Shown in pieces: positions 14,623 to 39,824 of a DNA stretch of 64,000 bases; positions within the stretch are counted from its first letter, which is position 1; the number at the start of each line of letters is the position of its first letter. The notes below the pieces were generated by a model. The model had not been told where the DNA came from. It did not search any database and saw nothing but the letters and a program-made list of their open reading frames with translations. The DNA lies in NCBI RefSeq assembly GCF_001536065.1, contig NZ_CZVW01000006.1, forward strand, positions 1-64,000. Reading direction: 5' to 3'. Origin of the DNA: Candidatus Chryseopegocella kryptomonas. GTDB lineage: Bacteria > Bacteroidota > Ignavibacteria > Kryptoniales > Kryptoniaceae. The position numbers and the translations under genes were made by a program.

Positions 14623-14706
14623 GGAGGGTTAGCCTAATTGGTAAGGCGGCGGTCTTGAAAACCGCTGGGCTTCGCGCCCTTGGGGGTTCGAGTCCCTCAC
14701 CCTCCG
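14623..14706 (+). tRNA. tRNA-Ser (anticodon TGA)
   Basis: 84 nt. The acceptor stem pairs GGAGGGT (14623-14629) with ACCCTCC (14699-14705), with a G discriminator at 14706. The anticodon stem GCGGT/ACCGC encloses CTTGAAA, giving anticodon TGA (14656-14658) for UCA codons. The long variable arm (TGGGCTTCGCGCCC) is the class II mark of tRNA-Ser, and GGTTCGAGTCC forms the T arm. The CCA end is not encoded. Confidence 0.97.
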
Positions 14707-21870: not shown

Positions 21871-25178
<3,308 letters not shown>

Positions 25179-25179
25179 A

Positions 25180-27402
25180 TCAATTACGCCAGAGATATTG
25201 AACTTTTAAAAAGAACTCACGATTTGTCTGCCTCACGCCATAAGGTTCTTCGAAGTCAATCATATCAAGAGTTGAACCGATGTAAAAAATTGTGAATGGA
25301 TTAAGTTTAAAGCTTAACAATGGAAAAACCTGAACAGAACCGCTGAATGAATTATACTGCGTTATCAATCGCACGAACAGATTCGGATTAAACTGATAGA
25401 TTCCAACAAGCCCAGTTATATAGCCGTCGTAAAATTTTTCTTTCGTTTCAATATCTTTCAAATTCGCTTTTTGATACCAGATAGAAATTTCAATTTTATC
25501 TGTTGGTTTAAGTTTAAACCATGCGCCGAGTTCTGTCCCTAAACCAAGTTTTGGCTCATCCGTGCGATAAATATATTTCCCATATGAGCCGTTAAATTGC
25601 AAACTTAAAAATCCAGTTGGGGTAGAGTAAATGTTTGCAAAAATACGATGAATGTTTCTGAATCTATGATTTCTGAAAATTTCATCGTTTAATGGAAGAA
25701 ATCCAATGAATACATTTGTTTGAGTTTTTAATTGTCCGCCAATCCCAAGCATGAACCATTTTTCTTTCTGCGCCCCGAAATAATTAAATCTAATCCCGCC
25801 CTCGGCTGTTAAAAATGCAATGTCTATAAATGAATTTTTGGGATAAAGTGTAAATTGATTCTCAATAGTTAAAACTCTCCCGTTGTTTGATGTGACAAAA
25901 CCTAAATGTGGTTGAAATGTTGGTGAAAGGTCGCGGTAGGAAATGTCAAGTTCGTGATGTTTTGTGTTTCTTGTAAATCTCAAAATTACTCCTGTCCCAG
26001 AATATCTTTCACCGTTAAATGTTGCATCAAAGTTTGAATTTCCAAATTTTCTTGTGCTTGAAAATATGTCAGAGTTATTTATCTCTTTCGTCAAACTGTA
26101 AAGAATTTGCCCCCTGAAATAATAGCTCTTCCAGAAAAATAAACTCCAATCAACACCACCGACATAATTATACGCATCGTTTAAATTTCTCGTCGTCAAA
26201 AGAAAACCTGCATAAGATTGTTCGCCGAAGTCGTATCTAATTCGTCCGATGTTTGAGAGTGATTTTAAATTTGTTGAGATCGTTGAACTCTCTTCTTCAC
26301 CTGGAATAATAAATGTTGTATTTCTGTCAAGTGATGAAAGATAGGCAATGGTTATTTTATTTGACTTTTGTTTCAATTTCAAAGCAAAGAGTGGATTGTT
26401 TATCATTCTTGAATAAAATGCATTTATCGGCGTTCTAAAAATTTCCGCACCTTCAAGAAAGAAAGGTCTCTTTTCGGGATAGTAGAGCGCAAAAGTCGTA
26501 TTTACATTTATCTGATATGCGTCGCTTTCAACTTGGCTGAAATCCGGATTTAAAACGCCTTCAATTGTAAGTTCAGGATTTGGAGATATTTTTACGCCAC
26601 TTCCAAATCTTCCTTTTATCGGCTCGTTTTTAAATTCAAGTGAAGGATCATAATCTTTTAGAAAGCCAGATTGATAACCCATTGCATAAGGTAAAATTTC
26701 AATTAAGCTTGTTGAAGTAATTTCATCAAGTCCCGTTAATTTCCCGCCTTGACATAGAAGGCATGGATTGTTTTTATCAAAAGGTGTCCATGAGAAGATA
26801 AATCTACTTTTGCGAGGATAATTTCTTCCGATTAAAATGTTCCATTCGTGATTTTTCTTTTTCGGAAATCTCAAACTTTTAAATGGAATTGCAATTTCAA
26901 CAGTCCAGCCGGAGTCATTTACGAAGCCAGCCGAACGCCAGATAAAGTCAAAACTCATATCTTCTGAATTCCCAGCTCTTATGCCATCTCCTTGAATTCC
27001 GTATGGATTTACCGCAAGCTCGTATGCATTCTGATTGTCTCCGTATGTGTCAATTATTAAAATGATGAAGTCATCTTCCCAGATTTTATCTCTGTCTGTT
27101 AAGTGTGCTCTTATTTCTTTCGGGTTTGTGTCATAGCATATGAATCCGAAGTAAAAATTTTCATTGTCGTAAAGAACCATCGCTGTTGTTTTTTGAAGTG
27201 CGGGTTCGTTGTCGGTGATTTGAACTTCGTAGTTTAATTGAACTTTTTCTGCTATTTCCCAAGATTTTTCATCAAGTTTTCCGTCAATTTTAATTGGTTC
27301 GTTAGTTTTAAGGGCTTTGATTTTGTATTCGTTTTGTGAAATTGCAGGATTTAAGAAGGTGAGAAGAGAGATAAAGATGATTAGTTGTAGATGTTTTGAC
27401 AT
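25180..27402 (-). CDS. CBM9-like / DUF5916 outer-membrane protein
   Basis: 740 aa with a signal peptide (MSKHLQLIIFISLLTFLNPAISQ). Residues ~25-230 resemble a family 9 carbohydrate-binding module (KIDGKLDEKSWEIAEKV; VLYDNENFYFGFICYD; WTVEIAIPFKSLRF). The remainder is the DUF5916 beta-barrel, including NPDFSQVESDAYQINVNTTFALYYPEKRPFFLEGAE across ~300-340. Such proteins are abundant in Bacteroidetes and relatives; the ligand is unknown. The stop lies 1 nt from the end of the GHMP gene on the other strand. Confidence 0.88.
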   Translation of the reverse strand: MSKHLQLIIFISLLTFLNPAISQNEYKIKALKTNEPIKIDGKLDEKSWEIAEKVQLNYEVQITDNEPALQKTTAMVLYDNENFYFGFICYDTNPKEIRAHLTDRDKIWEDDFIILIIDTYGDNQNAYELAVNPYGIQGDGIRAGNSEDMSFDFIWRSAGFVNDSGWTVEIAIPFKSLRFPKKKNHEWNILIGRNYPRKSRFIFSWTPFDKNNPCLLCQGGKLTGLDEITSTSLIEILPYAMGYQSGFLKDYDPSLEFKNEPIKGRFGSGVKISPNPELTIEGVLNPDFSQVESDAYQINVNTTFALYYPEKRPFFLEGAEIFRTPINAFYSRMINNPLFALKLKQKSNKITIAYLSSLDRNTTFIIPGEEESSTISTNLKSLSNIGRIRYDFGEQSYAGFLLTTRNLNDAYNYVGGVDWSLFFWKSYYFRGQILYSLTKEINNSDIFSSTRKFGNSNFDATFNGERYSGTGVILRFTRNTKHHELDISYRDLSPTFQPHLGFVTSNNGRVLTIENQFTLYPKNSFIDIAFLTAEGGIRFNYFGAQKEKWFMLGIGGQLKTQTNVFIGFLPLNDEIFRNHRFRNIHRIFANIYSTPTGFLSLQFNGSYGKYIYRTDEPKLGLGTELGAWFKLKPTDKIEISIWYQKANLKDIETKEKFYDGYITGLVGIYQFNPNLFVRLITQYNSFSGSVQVFPLLSFKLNPFTIFYIGSTLDMIDFEEPYGVRQTNREFFLKVQYLWRN

Positions 27403-27488
27403 TTCACAAGGTTTCGTTTTGTTTGCGATTTTATTTCGGTATGTTTTTACGAAAGGCGGGATTTTAAAGTTACAGATGCTGAAAAATC

Positions 27489-27514
27489 AAAAAACCTCCC
27501 CAGATGGGGAGGTT
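27489..27514 (-). terminator. Intrinsic terminator of the ZnuD-like receptor gene
   Basis: On the minus strand a perfect 9-bp stem (AACCTCCCC with GGGGAGGTT, 27493-27514) with a 4-nt loop is followed by a T run, 15 nt after the receptor stop. It separates the receptor from the DUF5916 gene downstream. Confidence 0.8.
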
Positions 27515-27528
27515 TATGAATGAGTTAA

Positions 27529-29697
27529 TCAAAACAGAAGATGATAAATCAAGCTTACATTTCGCCCCGGCATTGGAGCAAAACTTTTTATCCTTGAAAG
27601 ATGATCGTAATATGTTTTATTTGTTAAGTTTTCAATGTTAAGATTTATCTCATGTGCAAGTCCGAAGGAAATCAATCTCAATCCAAAATGCAAATTTATA
27701 ATCCCATAGCCGGGCGTTCTCGTTTCATCCGGGGCGATTTTATTTTGCGATGAAACTAATTTAATTTCAGCTCCAAAATTATATTTGCTCGTTCTATATT
27801 CAATCCCAATAATACCTCTCAACGGTGGGATGAACGGGAGGTATTCGTCAACATCTCTTTTTTTACCTTCAACATAATCAACAAGAATTGATGTGTTAAG
27901 ATGTCTTATCGGCTCAAATTCAAATTTTGCTTCAAAACCACGCAAAACAGAGTTTGAAGATGTGTATCCATAAATTGGAAGCCCAGATACACTGTCAACC
28001 TCGCCAGTGTTATATGGATAGACGAAGTTATTGATGTAGTTCAGAAAAAGCGAAACATCAACATTTGATCTTTGCGTCAGCCATCTAAATGAGAGATCAA
28101 CCTCGTTTGATATTTCCGCTTTTAAATCAGGATTTCCAACTTCAAAACTTAAAGTCCCAAGGTGTGGTCCATAGGCAAATAGCTCTTGCAGTGATGGAAT
28201 TCTGAACCCTCGGGAGAAACTTAAAGTTAAATTCATCGGATCGGCGAGTTTATAAACAAATCCAGCAGATGTTGAGAAGACGCTGAAATTTTTAACTTGA
28301 GATGGCGCATTTTCAAATTCTTTTGACTTAATGCGAGCGAAATCGTATCTTACGCCAGTTTGAATTGTTAATCTGTTAAGTTCAAGTTCTTCGTAAAGTA
28401 TTAAAGAAGCAAGATAAAGGTTTGCATCCGCAAAAAATTTCTCTTCGCCTGTGGTGCTGTAATTTTGATACATAAAGCTTGAACCAAGCATCCCGGATAA
28501 ATTCCCAATTTTTGCATGTTTTAATTTCAAATCAGATGTTAGCGTCCTCGTTTTTATGTGCGTTGCAATTTCTCCATTTTCAAGTTCCCTGTGGTCGTAA
28601 TCAGTTTGATTAATTTGCAATTCAATACCTTGAATTTTTGAATTTTCAAATCCAAGCTCGGATTTAAAAGCAAATTTGTTTCTGTTTATCTTAAATCTTG
28701 GATGTTCTTCATCTTCAGTTGGGACACCGTAATTACCTTGATAATTTCTGAAAGCAAATCCAGTTGTTAAGTTTTTTGCGTGATAAGCTATCCCGATTGA
28801 AGATGTCAAGTTTTCAGATTCTGTGTTGTTGAGCGTTCCAATTGGAGTTTTCGTATCGCCGTTTTTTCTGTATCCAAATTCGCCTCTAAAACCAAAATTT
28901 TTAATTCCATAATCAAACGCACCTGAGCCAGATAAAGACGAATTGACACTTGAACCAATCAATCTCATAGAACCACGGAGTTTATCGTGAACTGTTTTCG
29001 GTATGTCTTCTGAGATTATGTTTATTGCACCGCCAACGGAATTAGTCCCGTAGAATAAACTTGCTGGACCGCGGATTACCTCAATTCTTTCAACTGATGT
29101 TGGTTCAAAAGAGATAGCGTGATCTGGCGATAAATCAGAAGCGTCTCCTATTCTCACGCCGTTTTCAAGTATTAAAATTCTTGTGCCCGTTAGCCCACGT
29201 ATCACAGGTCGTCCGACATTTGAGCCGTTAAATTCAAGATTTATCCCTGGTTCATATGAAAGCGTCTTTGCAATGTTATCGCTCAATCTTAAACCAAGTT
29301 TGTCTTCATCAAGCACTGCGATTGGTTGATGTATTTCAAATGCACTTCTTTCATACATCGTTCCTGTAACCACAACTCCGGGGAGTGAAATTGCAGTTTG
29401 CTCAAGCTCAATGTTTAATTCAACTGTTTCATCATCTTTTAAATTTATCTTCTTTTGTGTTTTTTTATAGCCGACATAGCTAACTTCAATCGTGTAATTT
29501 CCCGCTGGGACTTTGTTGATGATGAAAGTTCCATCGTTTTTAGTGATCGTTCCTCTTTTGAGTTCAATGAGATGAACATCGGCGAAAGGAAGCGGTTCTT
29601 TCGTGGTTTTGTCTATAACTTTGCCTTTAATTGTTCCCTGCGCAAATAAATTTATGTGAAAGAATATAATAAGCCCAAACAAGATTATTTTTCGCAT
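27529..29697 (-). CDS. TonB-dependent receptor, ZnuD-like (probable metal uptake)
   Basis: 722 aa from the ATG at 29697; the open frame extends 5 codons further, but MRKIILFGLIIFFHINLFAQ is the natural signal peptide. It has a CarboxypepD_reg-like domain (about 20-110; GKVIDKTTKEPLPFADVHL), a plug with RPVIRGLTGTRILILENGVR, then a barrel ending in Phe. The segment GDASDLSPDHAISFEP just before ERIEVIRGPASLFYG resembles ZnuD-type zinc receptors. A small His/Cys-rich protein lies 67 nt upstream, and an intrinsic terminator follows. Zinc or another metal is the best-supported ligand, by inference. Confidence 0.85.
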   Translation of the reverse strand: MRKIILFGLIIFFHINLFAQGTIKGKVIDKTTKEPLPFADVHLIELKRGTITKNDGTFIINKVPAGNYTIEVSYVGYKKTQKKINLKDDETVELNIELEQTAISLPGVVVTGTMYERSAFEIHQPIAVLDEDKLGLRLSDNIAKTLSYEPGINLEFNGSNVGRPVIRGLTGTRILILENGVRIGDASDLSPDHAISFEPTSVERIEVIRGPASLFYGTNSVGGAINIISEDIPKTVHDKLRGSMRLIGSSVNSSLSGSGAFDYGIKNFGFRGEFGYRKNGDTKTPIGTLNNTESENLTSSIGIAYHAKNLTTGFAFRNYQGNYGVPTEDEEHPRFKINRNKFAFKSELGFENSKIQGIELQINQTDYDHRELENGEIATHIKTRTLTSDLKLKHAKIGNLSGMLGSSFMYQNYSTTGEEKFFADANLYLASLILYEELELNRLTIQTGVRYDFARIKSKEFENAPSQVKNFSVFSTSAGFVYKLADPMNLTLSFSRGFRIPSLQELFAYGPHLGTLSFEVGNPDLKAEISNEVDLSFRWLTQRSNVDVSLFLNYINNFVYPYNTGEVDSVSGLPIYGYTSSNSVLRGFEAKFEFEPIRHLNTSILVDYVEGKKRDVDEYLPFIPPLRGIIGIEYRTSKYNFGAEIKLVSSQNKIAPDETRTPGYGIINLHFGLRLISFGLAHEINLNIENLTNKTYYDHLSRIKSFAPMPGRNVSLIYHLLF

Positions 29698-29764
29698 GGC
29701 TTTGAAAACCAAATTTTGTTTTTAAAAAATTTTTTTCAGAGAAATGAAAAAGTTTAAAGATGGA

Positions 29765-30091
29765 TTACAAAACTGGGGGAGCACGCTTTAGGATTGAAAG
29801 ATAGTTGAGAGGTTTTGGGAAAGGTAAAATCTCAGCAGTTGAAATGTTTTCTGTCTCAGCTGTAAAATCTAAAGTGTAAATTTTTGAAGAGAGATGGTTT
29901 AAATTAAGCGATGTTAAAACGCAGGCAAATTCGGAATTTAAACCGGGATGAAATTTGTGGTTTATGCAGTTGTGTTCGGTTATTTGCTTTGAATCGTGGC
30001 TTAAATGAAAATGAAAGTTAAGTCCGACATAAACAAGTCCAACAAGATAAATCGCAAGCGTAAGCAATATGTAAATTTTTCTTTGCTTCAA
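29765..30091 (-). CDS. Small His/Cys-rich membrane-anchored protein
   Basis: 108 aa. One N-terminal hydrophobic helix (about 7-26) is followed by a histidine-rich outside segment (HFHFHLSHD, EHNCINHKFH and a second Cys in EFACVL) and a C-terminus ending RAPPVL. Short proteins with this design occur upstream of metal-related TonB receptors and efflux genes in Bacteroidetes. No named family assigned with certainty. Same strand and direction as the ZnuD-like receptor, so the pair is probably one metal-handling unit. Confidence 0.62.
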   Translation of the reverse strand: MKQRKIYILLTLAIYLVGLVYVGLNFHFHLSHDSKQITEHNCINHKFHPGLNSEFACVLTSLNLNHLSSKIYTLDFTAETENISTAEILPFPKPLNYLSILKRAPPVL

Positions 30092-30154
30092 AGTCAGCCA
30101 AATTTGTTTTGTTATTCAAAATTTTTAAACACAGTTGCGAAAATTCTTGTTCCA

Positions 30155-31075
30155 TCAAATCTCAAGGATGCGTTTTAAATTTCCGGAAAGTATTTTTTGA
30201 ATTTCTTCATCTGTTAAACCAAGTTCGTTCATTATCTCAAGCTGTTGATTTAAGATGTCAATTCTATATCCACGAGGGAAAACACCGCTGTCCGTCCCAA
30301 AAATAATTCTATCAACCCCGAAAACATCAATCGTCTTTGCGAAGACATCTTTGAGATCAATTTTATAAGGTAAAACTTTTATCCAAGAATTTGAGCTTGA
30401 TGTATCAACATAGACATTTTTACATTGAGAGCCGAGCATTAAAACTTCGCGCAGGTATCCAGCGCCAAAGTGTGGTATTATGAAGTTAACATCCGGATAT
30501 CTTACTGCAACTCTGTGAAGGTCGGTTGGATTGCTGTATGTCCCATCAATTTGGTCGTTTAATCCAATTGCTTCGCGAATGGGTATTTTCAAAATTCCAA
30601 AATGTGTGAAGACGATGATTTTATATTCTTTTGCGATCAAATAGATTTTTTCAAGCAATTCATCATAAACGTGTATATGATAAAGTGCTGGAAAAAGAAT
30701 AATTCCCTTCATCCCCATATTTTCAACTGCGTGCTTTATATTAGATTCAACTTCCGATGAGAGTGGGTTTATTGTGATAAAGCCGATAAATTTATCCGGG
30801 AAAGCCGAAATTGCGGTTGCCACGGAAAGCGCATCTTCTGGAATGCTTGCAAATAGAACAAGTTTTGAAATTTTATATTTTTCCATTTCCTCAATCCATC
30901 GTCTTGCGAGTTGCACGGGACTAACTGGTGGGGTTTCTATTCCGTATTTTTCTTTAAGATTTGAAAATTCTTCGCTCAATGGTGTTTCTTTTGTCTTCAT
31001 TCTTATGAGAGTTTTGAAGAAGTTAAATGAGAAAAAGTGAACATGGGCATCCCAGATTTCAAATTTTTCCGTCAT
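30155..31075 (-). CDS. TIM-barrel amidohydrolase (Amidohydro_2, COG2159 type)
   Basis: 306 aa, no signal peptide. Metal-binding motifs are visible: WDAHVHFF at the start (HxH), IVFTHFG near residue 150, NFIIPHFGAG near 200 and IIFGTDSGVFPRGY near 265 (catalytic Asp). The family covers decarboxylases and hydrolases of aromatic or cyclic substrates; the substrate is not predictable. It lies downstream of the small-RNA candidate at 31151-31232; if the terminator there leaks, the RNA would be its 5' leader. Confidence 0.83.
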   Translation of the reverse strand: MTEKFEIWDAHVHFFSFNFFKTLIRMKTKETPLSEEFSNLKEKYGIETPPVSPVQLARRWIEEMEKYKISKLVLFASIPEDALSVATAISAFPDKFIGFITINPLSSEVESNIKHAVENMGMKGIILFPALYHIHVYDELLEKIYLIAKEYKIIVFTHFGILKIPIREAIGLNDQIDGTYSNPTDLHRVAVRYPDVNFIIPHFGAGYLREVLMLGSQCKNVYVDTSSSNSWIKVLPYKIDLKDVFAKTIDVFGVDRIIFGTDSGVFPRGYRIDILNQQLEIMNELGLTDEEIQKILSGNLKRILEI

Positions 31076-31150
31076 TTTAAACTCCAGAAATTTTTTCTTT
31101 TGTTCAGTTTTAAAATATCAAAATCAAAGGAAGTTTTCAAATGGTCGGTA

Positions 31151-31232
31151 AAAAAATAAAAAAAGACCGCTGGCGCTCGGGGACACACGCCAGCGATCCC
31201 GGCGGGAAAGGAAACGGGGATGATTATGCCTC
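31151..31232 (-). ncRNA. Candidate small RNA (or terminated leader), about 80 nt
   Basis: Read on the minus strand, a strong promoter (31267-31239) is followed by ~80 nt without an ATG. It ends in a perfect 8-bp GC stem (CGCTGGCG 31195-31188 with CGCCAGCG 31175-31168, 12-nt loop) and a run of seven T, A, then more T. A second, weaker stem (ATCCC/GGGAT) lies just 5' of it. This is a complete transcription unit inside a divergent intergenic region where neither flanking gene needs a terminator. I cannot match it to a known RNA family. It could instead attenuate the amidohydrolase gene 76 nt downstream. Confidence 0.62.
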
Positions 31233-31238
31233 GCTATA

Positions 31239-31267
31239 AATATAATAAATCAAAAATCTTTTGTCAA
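31239..31267 (-). promoter_or_regulatory. Near-consensus sigma-70 promoter
   Basis: Minus strand: TTGACA (31267-31262), exactly 17 nt, then TATATT (31244-31239). The -35 is perfect and the -10 differs by one base from TATAAT. It points at the small-RNA candidate. It is the best promoter match I noticed in the window. The remaining intergenic sequence (31076-31150, 31268-31437) shows only AT-rich DNA and a weak 7-bp hairpin at 31394-31416. Confidence 0.72.
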
Positions 31268-31437
31268 GGGTTTCGGGCTATTTTTTGAGGTCATTTTAAA
31301 ATTGGCTCTGCAAAGCCCTAATGAATGTGGATTTGAAATGATTTTTAAAAAGTCAAAATTTTCTGCCCAAAATCCTTGCTTTTTAAAGCATCGGCTTTTA
31401 TTTTTGAATTAAAAGCAAAAATTAATTTTCCCCGAAT

Positions 31438-31857
31438 ATGTTGAAAAACGCACTTTCTTCTTGGTCCCTAATTCTGGTGATTACTATTTTAATTTTTGGC
31501 TGTGATAAACCGAGAGATTTGATCACGCCGACGCATATCGGAAGAGTTCCAGATGTTAAGAATTTAAGTGTTACTGTTGGGAAAACGCCAACTGGAAAAT
31601 ATCTTGTTCTTTTAAACTGGAGTTATGATGACAATGGAAATTTGCGTGAGTGGGAAGTTTACAGATCTTTGCGGGATACAACAGGTGGAAATTACTCATT
31701 TCTCCAACCGCCTGTCAAAATCCCAAGTTACGCTGATTCAACAATTCCAAGCTTCGCTGAAGATAGTATATTTGTCTACTACAAAGTTATCCCGGTTGGA
31801 AATGATAGATTTCTTGGGAAACCCGGGATAGAGCGTGTAACTCTTTACAAAAAATAA
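31438..31857 (+). CDS. Lipoprotein with a fibronectin-III-like domain
   Basis: 139 aa. The N-terminus ends in a lipobox (LIFGC, Cys near residue 22), so it should be lipid-anchored. The rest resembles one FN3-type beta sandwich (LVLLNWSYDDNGNLREWEVYRS ... VYYKVIPVGNDR). It precedes the type-IX-secreted protein gene by 23 nt, and a partnership on the cell surface is plausible. A similar but longer FN3 lipoprotein lies at 46114-47088. Confidence 0.72.
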   Translation: MLKNALSSWSLILVITILIFGCDKPRDLITPTHIGRVPDVKNLSVTVGKTPTGKYLVLLNWSYDDNGNLREWEVYRSLRDTTGGNYSFLQPPVKIPSYADSTIPSFAEDSIFVYYKVIPVGNDRFLGKPGIERVTLYKK

Positions 31858-31880
31858 AAATCAAAAAGAGGTGAAAAATC

Positions 31881-34684
31881 ATGCGTAAAATTACGGGCTT
31901 AATTCTGGCTTTCCTGCTTTTATTTGAAGGAAAGGTCTTTTCCCAATTTGCACCACTTGATACATCAACACCACAAGTGGTTTACAGTTGATAATACACC
32001 AAATCTCGCTGGTGGACAAACAAATTGGGAGGTTGACCGTGATTCAACCGATGGATATTATGAGAAAGAGCCGAGCACAGTTGGAAGCGGTCAACCTGGA
32101 CCTGGATGGTTTACAAACACAGGTTCAGCAAATGTTGGACCCGACCACAGGAGAACCCCATACACAGCAGGAAGTCCATCTGGAGCTTGGGCAAAGTATA
32201 TTTTCAACATTCCAACACAAACACAGCAAAACATTCTTGACACGGATGATTATTACATTCTTTACTACTATCTTCAACAGAGTGGGAATGCATCTCCAAA
32301 TTGTTATATAACAGTTGAGAGATTTGGTGAGGGTGTTTATGCTGATTCTTTGAGACATAATCAGATGTTAAATGGTGCTGGACTTCCGACTTTACAACAA
32401 GCGGGTTTGTGGCGTCCAACGCAAAGTGGTGCAGATGGTTCATGGTATCCACTTACGATTTTGAGATTAAACGCTGGAGCTCCTGTTATTGTGACAATTG
32501 GTGCTGACACATTAACACCTGCATTTTTGAGGGTTGATGCTGTTAGAGTTTTAAGAAGCAATCTTCCAAGGGATCTTGAATTTGGTAGGCGAATGAAGGG
32601 TAATCCATGGCAGGTGACAAATCCTGATACGACGAGACCGAATATGGATCATTTCGCACTTTACAGAGTTGGAGAGGTTTTCCCTGAGGTTACAGCTGGA
32701 GAGACAGCTGAGAAAAAGGTGAGATTGTTTAACCTTGGGGATAGCGTTTTGACTATTTACAATGTTTATGGACACACTGGAAGATTCTACACGAATGATC
32801 CTATGCCAATAAGGATAAATCCGGGAAGTTATTATGATTTGACGATTGTGTTCAGACCTTATCAGGAGGAGTTTATTGTTGATTCACTTGCGATAGAAAG
32901 CGACGACCCAGAGGAACCAGTTGCATATCTTCATGTTGCTGGACAAGGTTTAAACTATAATTTCATAATGAATGCAAGCGATGGGAGTGAGCCACATTGG
33001 AGAGCTCCTGGTGGGGATCAAGTTCTTTATCAAGAGACACCTGCTGGATGGGTGAATTCAGTTGCAAGTCCTTATCCATTTCCAATCCCCGGAGGCAATA
33101 GAAACAGCAGGGTTTACACTGGGACGGGTCAGATACCTTATGCGATTTATCAGTTTGTGATTCCTGATACGCTTGGTGGTGATTACATACTTGAGTATTC
33201 AGGACCTGCTGGTTCACCAAACGCAGCGACAGCAGCACAGATTGATGTTGTCACGCCATTTTTTGCTGATACACAGAGGGTTACAGGTTTTAATCAGAGA
33301 CAGGTTACAACCGCTCTTGTTTGGGCGCAGATTGGTGGACCTGGTTTTACATTTAAGTTAAACCCTGGAGGACCGACGCAGGTTATATTCAGCAACCCTG
33401 GGCAGGCATCTGGTAATTTCCTTAGGACTGATCTTTTAAGAGTTAGAAAAGTCCCAACACATCCTCAGATAACTGTTGCTCAAAGAACGATCGCATTTGG
33501 TGAAGTTGCGGTTGATTTAATTGAGAGAGAATTGCAAGGTAATTACAGAAGAACAAATTACAATTGGAAGTAATGGTGAGAGATCGCTTTGGATTTATGA
33601 CATTCATTTTGCGGATACTTCCGGAATTTTCAGAATCATAAATATGCCAAATTTACCACTTGAGCTTCCTGCAATAAATGGAAAGTTTAACCTAATCGTT
33701 GAGTTTGCTCCGAAAGATTTAAGAACATATGTTGATACCCTTTACATTGTTTCAAACTCAAAGTATGACAGCGTTTTAACTTTAATTTTCACCGGCACAG
33801 GCAGAGGTACGCTTGTTTATGCTGATAACGATGTTGAAGGAGAATTTTATGCGCAACCAAGCATAGTTGATTATGTTTATCCGCCAGTTGATACAACTTA
33901 TAACAAATGGAACAGGATAACAGGAAGCGGAATAAATAATTCAAGATTGCTTGCTTATATCTATGGAGCTCCAAATGCGTTTGCAGAATGGTATCCGTTT
34001 ATACCAATGAGAGAAGGTGCTTCTGAGGTTGATAGTTTTGATGTTTATGCAAGAACCGGGCTTGCAGCAAGTAATTCAACCCCAAGAGCAAGATATTTGA
34101 TTTATCAACAGGGTGGCGCTCAACCCGAGACAGTAATTGTTAGTCAACTTGGCGTTGAGAGAATTTACCTCGGCAGATTTCAATTCAGACGAGGTGGACG
34201 CGACTTTACAATGGGCTCAAAACAAACAGCGATCTTTGGTTATATCCGGCTTGAAAACGATACAGCTCTTGTGAATGCATATTACGCTGATTCACTTTTA
34301 AATAGAGCAAAGCAAGATAGTTTTGTCATAAGAGCAGATGCAATTGAAATAAGAGAAGCTCCAAAACCAGTTACAAAAGTTCAAATTGCTGGCAATGAAA
34401 TTCCGAAAGAATTTTATCTTGCGCAAAATTATCCGAACCCATTCAACCCGACAACAGATATTGAATTCTCTATTCCAGTTGCTGTGAATGTTGAGATAAA
34501 AATTTATGACATACTCGGCAGAGAAGTTGCAGTTTTGATAAACGAATTCTTACAGCCCGGAAAATATAAAGTCAGATGGAATGGAACAGATAAAAATGGT
34601 GCAACAGTTTCGTCTGGTGTTTATTTCTATGTGATGAAGGCGGGTAAATTCGTTCAAACGAGGAAGATGATGTTGATTAAGTAA
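31881..34684 (+). pseudogene. Modular type IX-secreted protein, frame broken twice
   Basis: One gene read in three frames, about 934 codons. From the ATG at 31881 (RBS AGAGGTG) a signal peptide runs to a TGA at 31989. The frame 1 nt later continues with DNTPNLAGG and runs to 33573. A third frame, again +1, takes over between 33521 and 33548 and reaches 34684. Modules: three golvesin-like beta sandwiches (about 31985-32560, 32960-33460, 33810-34370) alternate with two HYDIN/ASPM-type domains. A type A T9SS C-terminal domain (LAQNYPNPFNPTT ... SSGVYFYVMKAG) closes the protein. Both breaks fit single extra bases, so either a true pseudogene or sequence errors. Confidence 0.8.
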
Positions 34685-34690
34685 AAATTA

Positions 34691-34723
34691 AAGCCCGGGT
34701 GTTAAGCCCGGGCTTTTTGTTTT
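34691..34723 (+). terminator. Intrinsic terminator after the T9SS gene
   Basis: A perfect 9-bp stem (34691-34699 with 34707-34715) with a 7-nt loop is followed by TTTTTGTTTT, starting 6 nt after the stop codon. Confidence 0.9.
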
Positions 34724-34734
34724 AAATTAACTTT

Positions 34735-34866
34735 TCATTCCTCGTCTTGATCGTTATCATATCTTGTTTTTGTTCTTAGAACTTTTGCGAAGCAGTAAAT
34801 TGTCAATGTTGCAACAATTCCCCACGCAAGTGTCATAAAGATAATTCCTTCCGTTGTTAATTTCAT
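34735..34866 (-). CDS. MetS-like small subunit of an NSS transporter (43 aa)
   Basis: 43 aa (MKLTTEGIIFMTLAWGIVAT...) with one transmembrane helix and a charged tail. It starts inside the stop of the NSS symporter gene (TAATG overlap), so it is translationally coupled. Size, the single helix with an N-terminal T-x-E-x-I pattern, and position match the MetS/'methionine-alanine importer small subunit' microproteins that accompany bacterial NSS transporters. Too short for standard ORF calling, so easily missed. Confidence 0.72.
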   Translation of the reverse strand: MKLTTEGIIFMTLAWGIVATLTIYCFAKVLRTKTRYDNDQDEE

Positions 34867-36423
34867 TATATTTCTCCAGCTTTTGTTTTTTCTCGTTTTG
34901 CCCAGGCGGTTTTAACCATTAAAATTATGATTAGGAAGATCAAAAACATCAAAGCTCTTGCGCCCCATCTATATGGTATATCTTCTGGCTTAACATCTTT
35001 CATTAAAAGCGTTGGTATTGCATCTTGAACGAGCCAGTTTACCATGATGAAAAGGAGATAAAGAGGAGTTATGTATTTGATGATGTAGTAAAAAATTCTC
35101 GGCACTTTAATATCAGCGCCTTTTGTTATTTCAGCCCAGCCTTTATCCATCCCAAATATCCAAGCGAAAATTATAATCTCAAACAAAGCAAAAAGAACAA
35201 GTCCAAAAGTTCCAGCCCAGTAATCCATTTCATCAAGGAAGCCATGTTTTAAGAAAAACACAACAAATTGTATTGCGATGAAAACAGAGAAACCGATCAA
35301 AGTTGTCGCTCTGGCGTGTGAAATTCCGAATTCTTCTTTTAGAAATGCTATCAAAGGTTGAGCCATTGCAACAGATGAAGTTATCCCTGCGAAGAAAAGG
35401 AGCAAAAACCAAAGAAAACCAAAAAATTCTCCAAATGGAAGTTTTTGAAAAATTATCGGCATTGATACAAAACCAAGGTTAAATGCACCGCCTTTGGCGA
35501 TTTCCTGTGTCGTTTCTATTCCAAAGAAAGCAGCTGCAACTGGAATCGCAATGCTTGCTCCAAGAATTACTTCAACGAATTCATTTGTTGAAGCTGTTGA
35601 AAGACCGCTTAAAGCGATGTCATCTGTTTCCCTTAAATAACTTGCATAAGCTTGCAATGTTCCCATTCCGACGCTCAATGTGAAGAAAATTTGACCTGCA
35701 GCAGCAAGCCAGATTTTTGCATCACCAAGTTTTGAAAAATCAGGATTCCATATAAAAGCAAAGCCACTTTCAACGCTCCAATCAGGATGATTGACTGGAT
35801 CAGGTGTCCCAAGCGTCACAACTCTTATGACGAGAACTATTGCAAACAGGAAAAGCATTGGCATTGCAATTTTAGCAAGCATTTCTATGCCCCGTGATAT
35901 TCCACGATAAAGAATGAAAAAGTTGAGAAACAGGGTTACACACATAAAAAGGTATGCGGGGAGAATGCTTTGGAAATAATTTTTCTCAATTCCTTGATAA
36001 CTTTGCAAGAAGCTTCGCATCGTGTCAAATGTTGTTTCGCCAAAATATGCTTTCGTTATTGAGAAGAAACTAAATGCAAGCGTCCACGATTCAATGTATG
36101 TGTAATAAACCATTATTACCGTTGATATAAAAAGCCCAAGTGCTCCAAGATACTTTGATATTGGAGCTTTCCACATAGCGTCAAACATTCCGGGTGCGCT
36201 TCCGTGACCGAATTTACCGCCGTATCTTCCGATAGCCCATTCAACCCACATCAATGGAATTCCAAGAAGTAGAAAGGCAACGAAATATGGAATCATAAAA
36301 GCCCCCCCCTCCGTTTTGTGCAGCTTGAACTGGGAATCTGAGAAAGTTCCCCAGTCCAACTGCATTTCCCGCCATTGCGAGAATTAATCCGATTCTTGTC
36401 CCCCAGCGTTCTCTTTTTGCCAT
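34866..36423 (-). pseudogene. NSS-family sodium:amino-acid symporter, frameshifted in a G8 tract
   Basis: The natural start is the ATG at 36423 with AAGGAGG at 36428-36434. It gives [31 protein letters not shown], the classic NSS first helix (Na+ and substrate site). The frame breaks at eight C on the plus strand (36302-36309, G8 in the gene). With seven G it would read [12 protein letters not shown] and run on to 34866 (about 518 aa, 12 helices), matching the family. As given, the two halves are in different frames. This is a sequencing error, a pseudogene or a slippage switch. The SWEAxxD-like external region and MetS partner are otherwise intact. Confidence 0.85.
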
Positions 36424-36620
36424 TACGCCTCCTTATTTGTTAGTTTTCGTTTCGTCCGGGTTTTGAAAATTTTTTGTTTCCAAATTTAAACAAATGATAA
36501 AAACTTTAAATCAAATTTTCAAGTAAAAGTGCATTACTTCGCCTGCCTATGTTAATTTTCCCGTTTGTTCTTTCTTACTTTTTTGTTAAATTTTAAAAAA
36601 AAGAAAAAGCAAATTGAGAA

Positions 36621-37487
36621 TTGAAAAAGATTGAACTTGACGAGCTTAAAAAAAGATTGAAGCAAGTTAAGCTCGTTGCCTGTGATATTGACGGCACATT
36701 GTTAAGTTCAGACAATCAAATAGGCGAGGGCACAATTCAACTGGTAAATGAATTAAAAAATTACGGAGTTAAATTTACTCTCATCACTGGGCGTGTTCAT
36801 TCCGCTTCTGTAAAATATGCGAAAATGCTTGGGGTTGATGATCCAATTGTCTCTCTAAATGGTGCGCTTGTGAAATTTCCTGAAGGAGAAACTATAAAAG
36901 CATTTTATCTTCCAGAGAAAAAAGTTTTAAAGGCGCTTGAACTTGCAGATAAATTTTTCGTGAATATACTTTTTTATTCCGAAGATAAAGTTATTTACAC
37001 TCCTGAAAATACAATTTTCCCATCTTACATCGGAAATCTTGAAGCGGAAACGATGGAAGTTGATTCATATTACGATTACACAGATAAAGTTTTGCGTGTC
37101 GTTTTAAGTTCAGACCGAAATTATATCCTTCACAAAATTGCACATAAACTTGAACCGCCTTTGTTCTCAAATATATCAACTTCAATTTATCCATCTCTTA
37201 AATACGACAGGTTAACATATCTTGAAGTAAAGCGACGAGGAATTTCAAAAGCGACGGGCTTAAAATATGTCAGAAAATTTTTTAAATTGAAGCGTAGTGA
37301 AGTTGCTGGCATAGGTGATTTTTATAATGACATTGAATTTTTAAAAAAGGTTGGAGTTGCGGTTGCTATGAAAAACGCAGTCGCAGAAGTTAGATTTAAC
37401 GCCGATTATGTCACAACGAAGACAAATGATGAAGATGGTGTAAGTGAATTTCTTGAAATTCTACTTGATGCAAAAAAATTGAAATAA
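36621..37487 (+). CDS. HAD-superfamily (Cof-type) phosphatase
   Basis: 288 aa starting from TTG; no ATG lies nearby upstream. Motif I is CDIDGTLLS (nucleophile Asp), motif II TLITGR, motif III the Lys of KRRGISKATGLKYV, and motif IV GIGDFYNDIEFLKKVGVAVAM. A Cof-type C2 cap lies between II and III. These enzymes dephosphorylate sugar phosphates, pyridoxal phosphate or FMN-like compounds; the substrate is unknown. The gene precedes the PgpH gene by 3 nt, suggesting cotranscription. Confidence 0.88.
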   Translation: MKKIELDELKKRLKQVKLVACDIDGTLLSSDNQIGEGTIQLVNELKNYGVKFTLITGRVHSASVKYAKMLGVDDPIVSLNGALVKFPEGETIKAFYLPEKKVLKALELADKFFVNILFYSEDKVIYTPENTIFPSYIGNLEAETMEVDSYYDYTDKVLRVVLSSDRNYILHKIAHKLEPPLFSNISTSIYPSLKYDRLTYLEVKRRGISKATGLKYVRKFFKLKRSEVAGIGDFYNDIEFLKKVGVAVAMKNAVAEVRFNADYVTTKTNDEDGVSEFLEILLDAKKLK

Positions 37488-37490
37488 CTT

Positions 37491-39824
37491 ATGAAAATTC
37501 CTTCGCTCAAAATATCATCTTTATTCCCGAAAGACCTTGCTCTTAAAGTTTTGATGTTTCTTGTTATCCCAATTTCTGTCGTGGTTCTTTTCCCAAGTCC
37601 TTACGCTTTTGAATATAAATATGAAGTTGGAAGTGTATGGCTTTATGATGATGTCGTTGCTCCTTTCTCATTCCCAGTTTATAAGGATGAAAAGCAATAT
37701 CAGGATGAAGTTAAATCCGTCTATTCAAAAGTTTATTTCATTTTTGATGTTGACACACAGGTTTATAGAAATCAAGTTAGAGAGTTTGAAGATTTTATAA
37801 CGAATTTGAAATCATACCTTGATTTGAAGAAAAGTTATCAGGTGAAAATAAATCGTGGTGTCAGCACAAGTTCATTGAAGCAGGATTCCATTGAGATTGA
37901 GCGATTGAAAAATTTATTGCTTGAAAAAGTAAATGTTTATGAACTTGAAAAAATTGAGTCGTTAAATAAAATTGGGTATTTTGAAATTGGCAAGTTTAAA
38001 GTTTTGGGACAAGCGTATCTTTCAATGATTTATCAGCCAGCGGGTGTGCTTTCCATACCGAGGGCAAATTTGAACAGAAATGAGATTGTTTTAAGAAAGG
38101 GTAAGTTTGAAGAAATTTACAAAGAGGGAAAATTTTACGATTTGAGCGAATGTTGGAATCTTGCCAAAGATTTTGTCAGGAAAAATTTTTCGGAGTTTGA
38201 AGAAGTTGACACTGCTGGATTTGATTTAGTTGCAAAAATTTATTATTCGTTTGTTAGACCAAATTTAATTTTTAATGAGAAAGAAACGAATGATTTGATT
38301 GAGCGAGAAAAAAGTAAAGTGTTGAAAACCGTTGGGGTTGTGCGTGAAAATGAAAAAATAATATCAAAACACGAGATAATAACGCCAGAGATATATCTTA
38401 AACTTGAATCTTTGAAAAAGGCACAAAAAGAGCGTGGAATTGGCACGGGCAAAATTCTCAAAGATTTGGGAAGATTTATCTTAACAGGATGTGTTTTCGC
38501 AATTTTCTGGATTTATCTGTATATGTATCGCAAAAGGATTTATTTTGACAACAAGTTGATCGCATTGATAACCGCATTGTTCTTGTTTGAAATTTTGCTT
38601 GCGTTTTTGGTGGGGAAAATAAAAGTTACAAGTAGCGATGTAAATTATCTTGTCCTTATTCCGACTTTTTCAATGTTGATGACGATAATTTTTGATTCAA
38701 GGGTTGCATTTTGGGCGACTTCTGTAATTTCGTTTATCACGGGGTTCGTTCTCGGATACAGTTATGATTTTGCGGTTTCGTCTTTTGTTGCTGGAACTGT
38801 TGCAATTTATTCTGTGAGAAGCATTGCAAATAGAATGCAAATTTTCAAAAGTTTTGTCTTCATATTTTTTGCTTATGTTTTCGTTGTGCTTGGTTTTTCG
38901 TTTCAAAAATATGAAAGTGTGAATTATTTGTTTGTTAAACTTGGTTTTGTCACAGCGAATTCTTTGCTTTCTCCAATTTTTACATACGGTCTTTTGATTT
39001 TCTTTGAGCGAATTTTTGGAATTATGACAGAGATTACGCTTCTTGAACTTTCAGATTTCAATCATCCGCTTTTGCGTGAATTACAAGCACGGGCTCCTGG
39101 GACATTCCATCATAGCATTGCTGTTGCAACACTTGCAGAATCCGCAGCTAAAGCCATAGGGGCAAATCCAATTCTGGCAAGAGTTGGAGCATATTACCAC
39201 GATGTTGGAAAAATTTTAAATCCTGAATTCTTCATTGAGAATCAAATGGAGTCGGATAAACTTCACGATTCAATAACCCCGGAGCAAAGCGTTCAAATAA
39301 TAATTTCGCATGTGGAGGAAGGACAAAAACTTGCGAAAAGATATAAGCTTCCATCCGAAATTATAAAGTTTATTCCTATGCATCACGGAACGACGCTTGT
39401 TGCGTATTTTTATGGCAAGGCATTAAAAAGGCGTGAGCTTAAAGATGTTGAAATAGAAGAAAGCAATTTCAGATACAAGGGACCAAAGCCGGATTCAAAG
39501 GAAACAGCAATTGTTATGCTTGCTGATTCAGTTGAGGCTGCTGTTCGTTCGCTTGATGATAAGACGCCGGAAAACATTGAAAAAATTGTTGAGGCTATAT
39601 TTGAAAACAGAATTGAAGATGGACAACTTGACGAGTCAAATTTAACATTCAAGGACATTGAAGAGATAAAGAAAACATTTATTCAAATGCTCGTTAATCT
39701 TTATCATCCACGTGTTAAGTATCCAGCGCAAGAGGAAATTTTGAAAGAGAAATCAGAGCGAACCCCGGAGCCGAAAGCGAAATCAAAAAAGAGAACGAGA
39801 AAAGTTAAAAATGGCGGGGATTGA
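37491..39824 (+). CDS. pgpH: PgpH-type membrane HD phosphodiesterase (7TMR-HD)
   Basis: 777 aa. One N-terminal helix, an extracytoplasmic 7TMR-HDED domain (about 50-300), seven transmembrane helices (about 325-525), then a cytoplasmic HD domain with HHSIAVATLAE, YYHDVGKI and MHHGT metal ligands. Homologues hydrolyse cyclic di-AMP to pApA. The C-terminal tail is very basic (KAKSKKRTRKVK). It overlaps the recombinase gene by 14 nt. The c-di-AMP role is inferred from the family, not shown here. Confidence 0.9.
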   Translation: MKIPSLKISSLFPKDLALKVLMFLVIPISVVVLFPSPYAFEYKYEVGSVWLYDDVVAPFSFPVYKDEKQYQDEVKSVYSKVYFIFDVDTQVYRNQVREFEDFITNLKSYLDLKKSYQVKINRGVSTSSLKQDSIEIERLKNLLLEKVNVYELEKIESLNKIGYFEIGKFKVLGQAYLSMIYQPAGVLSIPRANLNRNEIVLRKGKFEEIYKEGKFYDLSECWNLAKDFVRKNFSEFEEVDTAGFDLVAKIYYSFVRPNLIFNEKETNDLIEREKSKVLKTVGVVRENEKIISKHEIITPEIYLKLESLKKAQKERGIGTGKILKDLGRFILTGCVFAIFWIYLYMYRKRIYFDNKLIALITALFLFEILLAFLVGKIKVTSSDVNYLVLIPTFSMLMTIIFDSRVAFWATSVISFITGFVLGYSYDFAVSSFVAGTVAIYSVRSIANRMQIFKSFVFIFFAYVFVVLGFSFQKYESVNYLFVKLGFVTANSLLSPIFTYGLLIFFERIFGIMTEITLLELSDFNHPLLRELQARAPGTFHHSIAVATLAESAAKAIGANPILARVGAYYHDVGKILNPEFFIENQMESDKLHDSITPEQSVQIIISHVEEGQKLAKRYKLPSEIIKFIPMHHGTTLVAYFYGKALKRRELKDVEIEESNFRYKGPKPDSKETAIVMLADSVEAAVRSLDDKTPENIEKIVEAIFENRIEDGQLDESNLTFKDIEEIKKTFIQMLVNLYHPRVKYPAQEEILKEKSERTPEPKAKSKKRTRKVKNGGD

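Follow-up and report, generated by a model that had tools for sequence, protein, structure and literature searches.

A predicted small RNA gene with repeated UCCC motifs, conserved in the Kryptonia lineage

The window analyzed here is a stretch of 64,000 nt at the start of contig NZ_CZVW01000006.1 of Candidatus Chryseopegocella kryptomonas, a member of a 'Candidatus Kryptonia' genus. Two of its genes, an amidohydrolase gene starting at 31075 on the minus strand and an ORF starting at 31438 on the plus strand, both run away from the gap which separates them, as the first-pass annotation of this DNA had stated. The gap hosts a promoter, a predicted small RNA (sRNA) and an intrinsic terminator, all on the minus strand. 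The components of this block, and two neighboring features which lie outside the sRNA gene, are the following:

31267-31150, minus strand: putative sRNA gene (block of promoter, RNA and terminator)
31262-31267, minus strand: -35 element TTGACA of the sRNA gene; CTTGAC is invariant in five genomes
31239-31244, minus strand: -10 element TATATT of the sRNA gene, after a spacer of 17 nt; TTATTATATT is invariant in five genomes
31158-31229, minus strand: predicted sRNA of about 72 nt, placed by the onset of conservation and the distance from the -10 element; it includes the stretch GUUUCCUUUCCCGCC
31199-31229, minus strand: 5' pyrimidine-rich segment of 31 nt, mostly unpaired as predicted by the consensus fold
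31215-31220, minus strand: UCCCCG motif, copy 1, predicted single strand; conserved, with one extra C in G004
31204-31209, minus strand: UUUCCC motif, predicted single strand; conserved
31178-31183, minus strand: UCCCCG motif, copy 2, in the terminator loop; conserved
31165-31198, minus strand: terminator hairpin GATCGCTGGCG / CGCCAGCGGTC, from folding and consensus fold
31150-31164, minus strand: T7-A-T7 tract; at least T6 in 5/5 genomes
31112-31140, minus strand: promoter of the amidohydrolase gene, TTGAAA-17-TATTTT, outside the sRNA gene; conserved
30155-31075, minus strand: gene for an Amidohydro_2 (PF04909) protein, the downstream neighbor, outside the sRNA gene

The promoter TTGACA-17-TATATT, which the first-pass annotation had placed on the minus strand, was borne out (31267-31239). 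The 5' end of the sRNA was set by combining the onset of conservation with the distance from the -10 element, which spans 6-11 nt in the five genomes, and is accurate to about 4 nt on either side. On the minus strand, the RNA letters GCAUAAUCAUCCCCGUUUCCUUUCCCGCCGGGAUCGCUGGCGUGUGUCCCCGAGCGCCAGCGGUC set in about 9 nt past the -10 element, and are followed by T7-A-T7. The consensus fold features one strong hairpin only, the terminator, made up by an 11-bp G+C-rich stem (31198-31188 with 31175-31165) and a 12-nt loop, UGUGUCCCCGAG. The perfect 8-bp stem reported earlier (CGCTGGCG/CGCCAGCG) stands as part of these 11 pairs, while the adjoining tract, read at the time as T7-A-T6, has one T more. 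Three copies of UCCC are predicted to be exposed, in AUCAUCCCCG and UUUCCCG, both in single strand, and in GUGUCCCCGAG, in the terminator loop. The remark that no ATG lies between promoter and terminator holds true throughout, none being found in the RNA in any of the five genomes.

The sRNA promoter is an 11/12 match, the best among the 40 promoter-like sites found in 24000-38000. Since 40.2 such sites are expected from shuffles of the same region, promoter-like sites are no commoner than in shuffled DNA, and the promoter by itself proves nothing. The combination of elements was monitored by searching for promoters which match at 9/12 positions or more and have, no further than 150 nt downstream, a perfect stem (8 pairs or longer) and T6. 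This arrangement occurs once in the 64-kb window, at the sRNA locus, and in none of 100 simulated sequences of the same length (first-order Markov). The folding energy of the locus, taken alone, is mildly unusual (z -1.69). The decisive evidence for the predicted element is its conservation.

A DNA search identified the block, in single copy each, in five of the seven genomes of the genus (G000, G002, G003, G004 and G006). In the sense-direction alignment of the five genomes the conserved stretch runs from the -35 box through TTATTATATT to the T tract; the flanking DNA could be aligned neither above the -35 box, nor below the T tract before the amidohydrolase promoter is reached. Over a core of 71 nt, genomes differ from each other at 1 to 3 positions (96-99% identity, a count which leaves out the single extra C of G004), compared with the 79-86% identity of the neighboring gene product, 75-79% of its DNA, and 35-50% of its fourfold-degenerate sites. 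Neutral sites are thus near saturation, whereas the RNA is barely altered. The comparison shows the predicted sRNA to be under strong purifying selection.

Conservation of the stems in relatives had been proposed as a check on the element. Stems are kept, a result which favors an RNA, in a sequence too invariant for covariation to be judged. Variation affects 2 of the 16 consensus pairs, each on a single side and with pairing retained (G-U/A-U and U-A/U-G); no pair carries a compensatory base change in the five genomes. One-sided changes of this kind are compatible with the predicted stem, and are not evidence of covariation.

The genes found above the RNA differ in all five genomes, being a plus strand ORF in G000, a divergent gamma-glutamyltransferase-like gene in G002, a greA-like gene in G003, a dnaJ-like gene in G004, and a gene for a TonB-type receptor in G006 (names of neighbors, the amidohydrolase excepted, are a reading of the translations). 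The block formed by promoter, RNA and terminator is the sole constant among the five loci. It is improbable that this block is mainly structural, serving as a terminator or 3'-end element for any upstream gene, with an incidental promoter. A same-strand gene does end shortly before the block in G003, G004 and G006, but the upstream gene points the opposite way in G000 and G002, the promoter is conserved along with the RNA though upstream genes differ in every genome, and a terminator alone needs no invariant leader of 31 nt. We give hardly any credit to the notion that the RNA is antisense to a small toxin-like gene of the plus strand, as in type I toxin-antitoxin systems. An ATG preceded by a ribosome-site-like GGAAAGGA is found on the plus strand of G000, opposite the 5' segment, and opens an ORF of 22 codons; yet the ORF measures 22, 19, 26, 5 and 5 codons in the five genomes, which share nothing beyond the overlap with the RNA.

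The stretch from the -35 to the -10 element recurs at three other sites (G001:C5:95339-95364, G000:C8:35798-35821 and G000:C23:4513-4533), with 93-100% identity over 21-28 nt, one of them directly preceding a tRNA-like sequence. The recurrence of these sequences elsewhere in G001 and G000 suggests that the sRNA promoter is of a housekeeping type of the genus.

The RNA precedes the amidohydrolase gene in G000, G002, G003 and G004. The first-pass annotation had proposed either a self-contained small RNA or a leader attenuating this gene, and co-orientation and adjacency in four of the five genomes are what the latter would predict. Cis-acting attenuators and riboswitch leaders resemble the locus in that a promoter and an intrinsic terminator are located ahead of a gene of the same strand. 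Here, in contrast, the gene has a promoter of its own, TTGAAA-17-TAT[T/C]TT, in 5/5 genomes, G006 included, which is found downstream of the RNA terminator wherever the RNA adjoins the gene. Moreover, RNA and gene are set apart in G006, where the RNA resides on contig 1, between the gene for the TonB-type receptor and a lipoprotein-like gene, and the amidohydrolase gene on contig 9, with no RNA ahead of it. No alternative antiterminator pairing is found in the consensus fold. Attenuation of the amidohydrolase gene is therefore contradicted by the available sequences, and we consider a leader very improbable. The same comparison shows the candidate sRNA gene to be independent of the neighboring gene. 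The self-contained small RNA is in turn well supported, the block being kept in five genomes amid unrelated flanks, and at a second location in G006. As judged from these data, the block is very likely to be an independent sRNA gene.

In the window, the amidohydrolase gene is the first of three arranged in a row on the minus strand (27529-31075), the others encoding a 108-aa protein and a TonB-dependent receptor. The 108-aa protein contains histidines, is membrane-anchored, and has no Pfam match. Amidohydrolase and 108-aa protein genes are found together in 5/5 genomes, and the receptor gene comes next in G000, G002 and G003, where the stretch reaches that far. The row is possibly an uptake locus.

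No Rfam 15 family matched the sRNA at gathering threshold, the only match in the window being a tRNA at 14623-14706. Below threshold, the highest-scoring match close to the locus (24.4 bits vs. a cut-off of 60) falls almost wholly outside the RNA. The earlier statement that the element resembles no RNA family was thereby confirmed. The Kryptonia lineage has been described from pH-neutral geothermal springs, and its description makes no mention of small RNA (PMC4737851); a search of the literature on small RNAs mapped by dRNA-seq, with Chlorobi as a search term, returned nothing relevant. On these three grounds (Rfam, description of the lineage, literature) the sRNA very probably represents a new family of a known type of RNA. 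It opens no new class of biology. Confirmation would make it the first sRNA family described for the Kryptonia lineage, to the extent that earlier work could be traced.

A covariance model of the sRNA scored 100-107 bits in the five RNA-bearing genomes, the next best score among 391 genomes of the class being 24.7 bits. Outside the genus, 19 genomes gave matches at E<=0.05 per genome. Chance alone predicts about as many, and none of the remaining 384 genomes of the class yielded anything above it. BLAST and covariance matches outside the genus (G014, G026, G030, G360 and others) were discarded, those inspected either lacking promoter or seed, or lying in apparent coding DNA; the L073 match in G004 proved to be another terminator hairpin. 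No copy of the block was found in viral contigs or plasmids. The model may be used to detect the sRNA in hot-spring metatranscriptomes.

The RNA was not found in two genomes of the genus, G001 and G005. RpoC sequences pair G001 with G002 (96.5%) and G005 with G006 (98.7%), G000 not being placed for lack of RpoC, and both sides of the genus tree, as sampled, consequently include RNA-bearing genomes. One contig of G001 stops (at 393954 of 393956) inside the gamma-glutamyltransferase-like gene which borders the RNA in G002, and the G005 assembly is 71% complete; the absences are thus probably assembly gaps, and uninformative. The amidohydrolase gene, which resides beside the RNA in G002, is missing from both assemblies as well. 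The two absences had looked like restriction of the RNA to one lineage, a reading which the RpoC grouping and the broken or incomplete assemblies do not bear out.

Hfq (PF17209) was not found in any of the seven genomes of the genus, whereas the same search, run on 14 named genomes as a control, detected it in five, among them E. coli and B. subtilis. As a consequence, any base-pairing sRNAs of this genus must act without Hfq. C-rich sRNAs of Firmicutes commonly need no Hfq (PMC5419742, PMC4132741, PMC9410917). In Listeria LhrC, UCCC motifs reside in a loop, in a single strand and in the terminator loop; every one of them binds to one and the same G-rich site, upstream of the start codon of the target, and Hfq is dispensable (PMC4132741). 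C-rich regions are used in a similar way by RoxS (PMC5419742) and IsrR (PMC9410917). RsaE/RoxS, LhrC, IsrR and FsrA are all short, and expose repeated UCCC or C-rich motifs in loops and unpaired stretches, as is predicted for the Kryptonia sRNA; LhrC also carries a motif in the terminator loop, as predicted here. The likeness is one of mode, and not of sequence: there is no sequence or covariance match, the phylum is different, and the Kryptonia sRNA has a layout of its own, with a single-stranded UUUCCUUUCCC stretch and a lone hairpin. Since neither family is among the Rfam matches, the sRNA is not a member of RsaE/RoxS or LhrC, but may work alike. Trans-encoded sRNAs are found also in the wider Bacteroidota group, where GibS, FopS, MasB and BatR of Bacteroides are reported to pair close to target start codons (PMC11697453). 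The Kryptonia sRNA differs from these in matching no Rfam family, and in being single copy, vs. the 14 paralogues of the FopS family.

The layout of the UCCC motifs, as found in LhrC, RoxS and IsrR, and the lack of Hfq point to a trans-acting, Hfq-independent pairing sRNA. The RNA of about 72 nt would be transcribed from a promoter of the housekeeping type and ended by its own intrinsic terminator. Its 31-nt pyrimidine-rich 5' strand and its terminator loop would expose the UCCC and UCCCC motifs, and these may bind stretches rich in G, typically those of translation initiation regions, pairing in trans and without Hfq.

Complementary sites associated with start codons were sought in three ways, none of which returned a convincing candidate. 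Sites nearly complementary to the RNA (17-mer, up to 3 mismatches) are no commoner than in the reversed control. GGAAAGGA-N-ATG sites are commoner than in the reversed control, but to the same extent in G001 and G005, which yielded no RNA; among 75 stretches taken from four genomes with the RNA, hardly any has its ATG where a gene could plausibly start. Duplex energies of the sRNA with nearby genes revealed nothing convincing. The start region of the amidohydrolase gene exhibits a weak excess of pairing energy in 5/5 genomes (p 0.03-0.22 vs. mononucleotide shuffles), but orthologues are not independent, and this excess is not counted as evidence.

The main rival to a pairing mode is the binding of a protein (a global RNA-binding protein, a polymerase or a nuclease), which the sRNA would titrate or guide rather than pairing with mRNAs. 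The RNA is near-invariant as a whole, stem sequence included and not the seed alone, and targets are not enriched, as might be expected of a protein ligand. The pyrimidine tract, conserved and unpaired, resembles a pairing seed, however, as do the repeats of UCCC, and neither a repeated protein-binding motif of known kind, nor an Rfam match to RNAs of that sort was found. Protein binding is accordingly held to be rather unlikely. By analogy with the Firmicutes sRNAs, base pairing is a fairly likely mode of action of the sRNA. The explanation which we favor with some confidence is an independent sRNA gene of about 72 nt, its product most likely pairing in trans without Hfq. Hfq appears to be missing in Kryptonia, and this is the setting in which the candidate sRNA is found. 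More tentatively, the sRNA might be a genus-wide riboregulator with which an uncultured thermophilic lineage of the Bacteroidota group independently arrived at the design of Firmicutes sRNAs, Hfq-free and with multiple UCCC, its seed lying in a terminator loop able to withstand the temperatures of hot springs.

Two further features of the window are located on the other side of the gap. A gene for a secreted protein, with a C-terminal sorting-type end (FNPTTDIEFSIP...), spans 31881-34684 on the plus strand, and seems to be broken by two frameshifts. At the first, near 31985, the signal peptide lies in one frame and the start of the mature protein in the next; the second, near 33530, separates the ORFs 31924-33573 and 33521-34684. 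The frameshifts would reflect either decay of the gene or an assembly error. At 34690-34716 a symmetrical stem, AAAGCCCGGG...CCCGGGCTTT, is followed by a T-rich tail on either strand. It lies between convergent genes which end at 34684 (plus strand) and 34866 (minus strand), and is probably a bidirectional terminator.
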